Below are positions 6,573 through 12,311 of a stretch of 37,591 bases of DNA, piece after piece; the first letter of the stretch is position 1; each line of letters opens with the position of its first letter. Both the position numbers and the translations under genes were made by a program. Below the pieces are notes generated by a model. That model made no database searches and was not told the origin of the DNA. It saw only the letters and a list, made by a program, of their open reading frames with translations. The stretch comes from an uncultured Thermomicrobiales bacterium (GTDB taxonomy: Bacteria; Chloroflexota; Chloroflexia; Thermomicrobiales; UBA6265), in NCBI GenBank assembly GCA_902806405.1, contig CADCWL010000056.1, positions 1 through 37,591 of the forward strand. Reading direction: 5' to 3'.

Positions 6573-6843
6573 ACGGCGGCCCCGGCGTGTCGGGGCCTCG
6601 GTGCCGGTCGGCACGGGTCAGGTGACACAAGACGCTTCCGCGTCCCCGGTGATGGCCGTGCCCCCCACGGGCACCCTGCCACTCGCCGCTCTCCCCGGTG
6701 GCACTGGAGAAACCCCACCCGGGTCTTCCCCGGAGCAGACCGCAACCGGGCCCGCTGCCTCTCGCCCGACCGCGTCCCGAGGCCACACGCGGACCCCGCG
6801 GCCCGTCCGCGTGCCTGCGCGCCCGAAGCGCCTTGCCGAGACC
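6573..6843 (+). other. structured stretch between khpA and rimM
   Basis: These 271 bases can be read in frame with rimM but their translation is low-complexity Pro/Thr/Arg. They contain the perfect stem-loop GGCCCCG-gcgtgt-CGGGGCC (6579-6598), then a smaller dyad around GTGCCGGTCGGCAC and a third around GGTGATGGCCGTGCC. No run of T follows, so a classical terminator is unlikely. It may be a processing or translation-control leader for rimM, or an N-terminal extension of RimM if a start upstream is used. Confidence 0.4.
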
Positions 6844-7371
6844 ATGGGACCCGACGCGGCCACCCCGCTGGCCGCGGTCCGCCTCGTCGTCGGTACGATC
6901 GTCGGGCCCCACGGCGTCCGCGGCGAGGTGAAGCTGCGGGTCGTCACGGACGATCCGGAGCACCTGGGACACGTCCCCCGCGTGTTTATTGGCGACGAAC
7001 CGCGCCCGCGTCGCCTCCTCGGCGTCCGCTTCCACGGCGGCCAGGCGCTGCTCCGTATCCAGGGGATCACCACGCCGGAGGCCGTCGACGCGCTACGCGG
7101 CCGGCCGGTCCGGATTGCCGGCAGCGACGCCCGCCCCCCGGCGCCGGGCGAGTACTTCCTCTACCAACTGTTGGGGCTGGAGGTCATCGACGAGGAGGGT
7201 ACGGCACTCGGCCGCGTCGCCGACGTGATGGAGACGGGCGCGCACGATGTCCTCGTCGTCGCCCCACCCGACGGCGGCGCCGACATCCTCCTACCGAACC
7301 ATCCCGAGGTCGTCCTCGACGTGCGTCCCGACGAGGGACAGATGGTTGTCCGACCCTTAGTCTACGAGTGA
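6844..7371 (+). CDS. rimM: ribosome maturation factor RimM
   Basis: A protein of 175 residues from the ATG at 6844, the usual family length (about 170-180). The N-terminal RimM domain begins LVVGTIVGPHGVRGEVKLRV, and the C-terminal PRC-barrel is marked by EYFLYQLLGLEVIDEEGTALG, GAHDVLVV, and ILLPNHPEVVLDV near the end. RimM helps assemble the 30S head and binds uS19. The start is not certain: the frame is open back to 6535, and no strong ribosome binding site precedes 6844. In many bacteria trmD follows directly, but here the next reading frame is a DUF2891 remnant. Confidence 0.93.
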   Translation: MGPDAATPLAAVRLVVGTIVGPHGVRGEVKLRVVTDDPEHLGHVPRVFIGDEPRPRRLLGVRFHGGQALLRIQGITTPEAVDALRGRPVRIAGSDARPPAPGEYFLYQLLGLEVIDEEGTALGRVADVMETGAHDVLVVAPPDGGADILLPNHPEVVLDVRPDEGQMVVRPLVYE

Positions 7372-10866: not shown

Positions 10867-11401
10867 CCCCCAGCCGGTCGCCCGCGTCGCCGCCCTCGCC
10901 GACGGCGCCGAGCTGGAGGCGGTCCCCCTGGCCTGCCAGGCCGACCGGCTCGGGGTGCGCACCCCGTCGCTCTCCTAACACGTCGCCAACCTAGCCGATC
11001 TCCACCACGAGCTCACCCTCCTAGCCCGCGGCGAACTGACGACGACGCTGGAGCGGGCGGCCGCCGGCAGGTGGGACGACGCGGCCCTCGTCGCCCTAGC
11101 CAATGCTCACCGCGCCTACGCCAGCACTCACCGCGGCCGCTCTGCCGTCACCGTCGATGCCCCCGCCGACGACGACCCGGTGGTCATCGCCGCTAGCGAG
11201 CGGCTGGTCGCGCTCGTCCTCGCCGCACTCGCCACCTACACCCTCGCGGACGGCGATGCCGTCCACGTGGTCTTCGGCCTCCGTTGCCTTGTCCGCGGGT
11301 CCATCACTCTCGACGCCGCCAACGGCTTGGGCATCCCCCTCGATCGCGACGAGAGCTTCCGCCGCTTGCTCGAGACGTTCGCCGCCGGGCTTTGGCGGTA
11401 G
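10826..11401 (+). pseudogene. TetR-family regulator with WHG domain, one nonsense codon
   Basis: From the GTG at 10826 the frame reads VPRRQTESPQEG, then RVAALADGAELEAVPLACQA, DRLGVRTPSLS, a TAA stop at 10976-10978 (codon 51), and continues HVANLADLHHELTLLARGEL to the natural stop at 11401 (191 residues in all). The WHG-type C-terminal domain is recognisable in AHRAYASTHRGRSAVTVDAP, FGLRCLVRGSITLDA, and DESFRRLLETFAAGLWR. The normal family sequence at the stop is SLYNHV, the DNA-recognition helix, so the protein would be cut in its DNA-binding domain. Only this single lesion is evident, so loss is recent or the base is a sequencing error. Confidence 0.8.
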
Positions 11402-11453: not shown

Positions 11454-12141
11454 ATGCCCCGCATTGCCTCGCCCGCGGAGGAGCGCGTCGGCATAACTCC
11501 ACTCGTCACCCAACACCCGGAAACGGTCCGCGCCCGCTGCCGCGCGTACGGCGTCGCCCGGGTGGAGGTCTTCGGCTCGGCGATCACCGACGCCGTTCAT
11601 CCCGCGACGTCCGGCATCGGCGTTATTCTCGAGGACGCGCCCGACGACGCCTTCGGGATCCAGCTGACCCGCTCCGACGATCTGAAGGAGCGGTTGGAGA
11701 CATTGCTGAGCCGTCCCGTCGGTCGCGTCATGGTCGGCGCCATTCGCTATCCGCGCTTCCTCGGGTCCGTCAACGAGACCCGGCACTGCTCTCGGCGACG
11801 TGACATCCTCGGACTGCTGGAAGATATCGACGAAGCAGCCGGACTCGCCGTGGACGACACGGCGGGGATGAGTTCCGCCGCCTGGCAGCGCGACCGGCGA
11901 CCGCCACGAACGGTCGCGCGGAACTTCGAGGTCATCGGCCAGGCAGTAAACCCGCTCGACCATCATTCCCGGGACCGCTCCGCGCAGATCGCCGCCCGCC
12001 GGCAGATCATTGGCCTTCGCAGCGCCCTTGTCCATGGGGCCGATGCCATCGGACGGGCTGGCCGTCCAAGAGCCGTTTCGGGTGGCGCGGGCCGAGATCG
12101 AGCAGGTACTGCGCGAAGGGGAGGAGAACGGGAACCCGTAG
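11454..12141 (+). pseudogene. collapsed MNT nucleotidyltransferase / HEPN (HepT) toxin-antitoxin pair
   Basis: Residues 15-105 from the ATG at 11454 resemble an MNT (MntA-type) antitoxin: VRARCRAYGVARVEVFGSA, LKERLETLLSRPVGRVMVGA, IRYPRFLGSVNETR. The catalytic DxD that should follow GS is now GIG (GS-AITDAVHPATS-GIG). Without a stop the frame runs into a HEPN/HepT-like part: RRDILGLLEDIDEAAGLAV, ARNFEVIGQAVNPL, RRQIIGLRSALVHGADAI. The RNase motif Rx4H (RSALVH) is kept, but the Tyr of Rx4HxY is Ala. A one-base deletion near 11783 appears to have fused the genes: the neighbouring frame there reads LLSAT-stop, a normal MNT ending. Near 12050 the HepT end shifts frame (EPFRVARAEIEQVLREG) to TAG at 12139-12141. 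Confidence 0.75.
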
Positions 12142-12287: not shown

Positions 12288-12311
12288 CGGGAGTGAAGGC
12301 GTCGTCCCGCC

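Follow-up and report, generated by a model that had tools for sequence, protein, structure and literature searches.

The locus examined here lies on the forward strand of a 37,591-nucleotide stretch of DNA (hereafter the window, meaning the whole of that stretch). It carries what is left of an MNT antitoxin gene, followed by what is left of a HepT toxin gene, downstream of a TetR-family gene. The features are as follows:

10868 to 11401, plus strand: upstream TetR-family gene; TetR_C_33 match of 67.4 bits for the part past its stop
11493 to 11783, plus strand: remnant of an MNT (MntA-like) antitoxin gene, recognised by homology to relatives (beginning at 11502) and by PADLOC model PDC-S09
11784 to 11803, plus strand: junction, aligned by eye with ten other copies; the overlap between the MNT end and the HepT ATG is destroyed
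11790 to 12050, plus strand: main part of the HepT toxin remnant, frame 3, recognised by homology to relatives and by Pfam; Rx4H kept, Tyr replaced by Ala
12064 to 12141, plus strand: C-terminal HepT remnant, frame 1, recognised by homology to the HepT of genome G022; ends with TAG at 12139-12141

MNT homology occupies frame 3 from 11502 to 11783, the best relative (G004:C459; 56%, E 3.5e-26) belonging to the same family as the window. PADLOC model PDC-S09 scores this half at 48.6 bits; an NTP_transf match in Pfam is absent. In Shewanella oneidensis, MntA uses a GSx10DxD motif to add three AMPs onto the Tyr of HepT, and changing its DxD to ExE abolishes the modification (PMC7641770). The window reads GIG at the place of the DxD present in all 19 chosen relatives, confirming the change to GxG noticed in the first-pass annotation. 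The GSx10 spacing given there is that of the published motif; the subfamily of the window has GSx11. The conserved Asp in PVDLVM, whose place suggests that it corresponds to D71 of S. oneidensis MntA, the third of the metal-binding Asp residues, is also replaced by Gly. The usual start position is ATA (11493), with a GGAGGAG stretch 5' of it. Among the 19 relatives, that position is occupied by ATG, GTG or TTG in 13, and another three carry an ATG one or two codons before it. In the window an ATG in the same frame persists at 11454, which is 13 codons 5' of the ATA. Conservation was scored by leave-one-out among 20 MNTs, the 19 relatives having been picked by hand, for similarity and completeness, from 41 rows outside the window's genome. 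Of the 16 columns with at least 90% conservation, the window MNT departs from 7 (each relative, 0-4 of 16-20), and of the 32 columns at the 80% level it departs from 13 (relatives, 0-11 of 32-38). With a mean pN/pS of 0.604 it also ranks first among the 20, closely followed by G012_300b (0.595), at pS values near saturation. Judged from these alignments, relaxed constraint is established for the window MNT.

HepT homology also lies in frame 3, from 11790 to 12050, with the best relative (G022:C274; 46%, E 2.9e-18) again in the window's family; the identification of the locus as an MNT/HepT pair is thus upheld for both halves. The Pfam HepT-like profile gives 23.2 bits on this half, just under its cut-off of 23.5, and 23.8 bits in the genome search. 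Most relatives read RNxLxHGY where the window reads RSALVHGA, so that R and H are present and the Tyr has become Ala, as first noted. Past 12050 the homology leaves frame 3. The HepT C-terminus, VQEPFRVARAEIEQVLREGEE, is found in frame 1 at 12064-12126, where it matches G022 HepT at 57% over 21 amino acids (E 0.004 when the whole window is searched, 3.1e-7 for a stretch of 120 bases); the reading frame therefore shifts a second time between 12050 and 12064. In the column test (12 of 26 rows, hand-picked in the same manner), HepT breaks 4 of 12 columns at 90% and 9 of 22 at 80%, as compared with 0-6 of 12-16 and 1-9 of 22-26 in relatives. Its pN/pS of 0.704 falls within their range of 0.535-0.735. 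HepT being no outlier in either measure, its decay is argued from the frameshift, the missing start codon and the replaced Tyr.

In most of the aligned relatives, MNT ends with LYAA and a stop, and the HepT ATG lies within those last codons in another frame. That ATG is absent from the window. Measured from the NETR codons to TGACATCC, the window sequence falls one base short of that of relative G011. This net loss after 11783 brings the MNT and HepT halves into one frame, in agreement with the one-base deletion that had been proposed near this position. The description of the locus as a fusion of the two genes holds for the joining of frames and fails for HepT as a whole, because the second frameshift puts the toxin's C-terminus out of frame. 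The fused frame runs on into unrelated sequence and ends at 12296; position 12141, taken earlier as the end, is the frame-1 stop. While MNT and HepT homology exceeds chance, the openness of the fused frame does not, since the window has a GC content of 70-74% (in 3-kb steps) and holds 87 ORFs of at least 150 amino acids in 37.6 kb; the same count led us to discard the open frame as a sign of function. An antisense gene over the site was also considered and rejected, the 304-amino-acid ORF found there having no Pfam match at E 0.001.

A TAA in the reading frame, at 10976-10978, interrupts the TetR gene as well. The upstream gene for a protein of metallo-beta-lactamase (MBL) fold is an open frame (105 bits), as is the 1038-amino-acid FtsX/MacB-type permease frame downstream on the opposite strand. 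Another genome of the comparison (G018:C180, L083) has the same MBL-TetR order with an open TetR; the stretch covered there contains neither an MNT nor a HepT match. At E 0.01 the pair is found in none of the 13 neighbour-gene loci compared (L083, L084, L086-L096). The 11 permease loci among them extend mostly for no more than a few hundred bases beyond the gene, and the informative ones are the two TetR loci, which extend about 1.3 and 1.5 kb beyond TetR.

The window's genome is represented by a 4.6-Mb assembly of 266 contigs, in which a PF01934 search finds three HepT places. Both of those outside the window are damaged. On contig C39 (L107/L001, G000:C39, about 484-1100), MNT is split over two frames and its DxD reads DxG; the accompanying HepT keeps Rx4H, has Cys in place of Tyr and carries CTG at the position of the relatives' ATG. 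On contig C147 (L002/L108, G000:C147, about 6778-7059), one TGA and one TAA interrupt the HepT match, in which R and H are replaced (CNRFIRGY); the adjoining MNT keeps DVD. With all three detected MNT-HepT pairs damaged, the host apparently no longer needs such a system.

Sister copies were compared at the level of the family, the window's genus being represented by the window's own genome alone. The family's relatives are two overlapping genes, and two-gene homologues with normal residues exist among them; the first-pass annotation had named such homologues in sister strains as proof of simple decay. The counts that follow are of distinct aligned strings with the window's loci left out, among which near-duplicates may occur and copies that do not align are missing. 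DxD is kept in 70 of 71 MNT contexts, the exception being the broken C39 copy from the same genome; R, H and Y are all kept in 66 of 71 HepT contexts, the five exceptions coming from G018 (one), G004 (two), G007 (one) and C39. HepT is frameshifted in G006, and in G011 the HepT match stops after 22 residues. Together with the five exceptions, these two cases indicate that damaged pairs are not rare in the family. Two other loci combine an MNT that keeps DxD with an altered HepT. The first (L056; G004:C459, 588-2717) has three MNT matches in a run and at least two HepT matches, and one MNT with DxD adjoins a HepT that is missing the active-site His and the Tyr (RNVRVEGP). In the other (L006; G018:C88, 1191-1830), a DxD MNT adjoins a HepT whose active-site His is Arg (RNVLVRAY).

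A search for fused proteins sharing the GxG and the missing Tyr, suggested at the outset, gave no further example among the candidates scored, up to 20 per genome in the class set and up to 8 per genome in the phylum set. Among the matches listed for 158 genomes of the class (42 with a match), a stop-free match over both halves occurs only in the window; among those listed for 400 genomes of the phylum (58 with a match), there is no other gap-free fused GxG protein. Two other rows listed in the phylum set, G325 and G179, span both halves free of stops. The first, G325:C143, was left out of the fusion count because its junction contains unread bases. A conserved fused MNT-HEPN family was accordingly rejected, the same residues being absent in fused form from the matches listed for both sets. 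NCBIfam, PHROGs and, at E 0.01, sequence searches of the PDB gave no match. In the plasmid collection the single hit was to a plasmid of Rubrobacter tropicus, which carries the pair as two genes (32%).

The locus is very probably a former overlapping two-gene MNT-HepT operon (MntA-HepT, type VII) that has lost its function and decays neutrally in a GC-rich genome. Decay is supported by normal two-gene homologues in the same family and by seven separate lesions in the window copy. Both genes show homology to intact relatives, two frameshifts are present, and constraint is clearly lost in MNT. The TetR stop, the damage in the genome's other two detected pairs and, among the matches listed, the lack of any relative with a fused GxG protein point in the same direction. 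Of what makes up a working type VII module, the window has neither GSx10DxD nor Rx4HxY nor two adjacent intact genes; the order, MNT first, is kept. The course of events may be pictured as follows. When HepT ceased to be made or to fold, nothing would have kept MNT active, and GC-leaning changes could have become fixed at its catalytic codons. The changed conserved codons are GC-richer in the window than in its relatives (sum +6.89 over 13 MNT sites and +9.47 over 9 HepT sites), and GGC in place of GAC or GAT at both Asp codons would be consistent with GC-ward drift. S. oneidensis HepT with its Tyr replaced is still toxic and less well neutralised (PMC7641770). A working HepT without the Tyr, next to a dead MNT, would be expected to harm its host, and the silencing or misfolding of HepT therefore probably preceded the MNT losses or accompanied them. 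The fused frame would then be a by-product of the first frameshift, and a functional product is not expected from the locus. Some observations point the other way: HepT does not stand out among its relatives, Rx4H is retained, the ATG at 11454 could start the frame, and G012_300b has a pN/pS close to the window's in a comparison where pS nears saturation. The earlier suggestion of coordinated decay is sound as regards decay; "coordinated" overstates the case, as both losses may be neutral.

The first-pass annotation had also offered an unusual fused variant acting through binding alone. Here a dead MNT half would cap the HEPN half joined to it, making the Asp pair and the Tyr dispensable. Such a protein could draw on the single stop-free frame that holds both halves, on the retained Rx4H, on the natural MNT-HepT fusion known in the phylum (G179) and on the occasional fusion to MNT of the HEPN family of HepT reported by Anantharaman et al. 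in 2013 (PMC3710099). It is nevertheless very unlikely. The frame-3 product lacks the HepT C-terminus, both usual start codons are gone and conserved MNT columns are broken; no relative found, among the matches listed, shares GxG together with fusion. The precedents do not help it either, G179 having both motifs intact and HEPN domains fused to MNT being described as typically devoid of the RNase residues (PMC3710099), the reverse of the window. In the window copy and in the C39 copy alike, catalytic Asp of MNT and the Tyr target of HepT have been lost and Rx4H has been kept. Writer and target residues might on this account have been lost jointly under selection, the Rx4H protein being controlled in some other way, in the window by the attached dead MNT cap; we regard this, too, as highly improbable.

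That a sound gene pair was spoiled by assembly or sequencing error is extremely unlikely. The number of contigs in the assembly and the small-indel nature of two lesions would suit such an origin. Error as the whole cause was rejected in view of at least five substitutions at conserved codons (the two Asp of DxD, the third Asp, the Tyr and the MNT start), and the neighbouring permease and MBL-fold genes are open. The decayed operon remains the preferred reading, and the locus is an ordinary decayed pair of an already known toxin-antitoxin kind. It also carries a caution: GC-rich DNA keeps long frames open by chance, and a frameshifted dead pair can mimic a new fused protein.

Comparison with known systems places the locus as follows. 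Like the type VII MntA-HepT pair of S. oneidensis (SO_3165/SO_3166; PMC7641770), it has MNT upstream of HepT, and the GS and Rx4H positions are recognisable; it differs in having GxG for DxD, Ala for the AMPylated Tyr, lost starts and two frameshifts. The G179 fusion (L105, G179:C1:2560384-2560872) likewise has MNT first and both domains in one open frame. Unlike the window, this 243-amino-acid protein retains GSx10DVD and RNRIIHGY and lies above the Pfam cut-off in both domains (HepT-like, 97.6 bits; NTP_transf_2, 55 bits). The domesticated MNT-HEPN fusions also join the two domains; they typically lack RNase residues and are interpreted as nucleotidyltransferases (PMC3710099), whereas in the window it is the transferase residues that are lost and Rx4H that stays. 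The C39 pair resembles the window in its MNT frameshift, the replacement of a DxD Asp by Gly, the loss of the HepT Tyr and ATG, and the retention of Rx4H. It differs from the window in having DxG rather than GxG, Cys in place of Tyr, a HepT C-terminus that is still in frame, and genes that are unfused.
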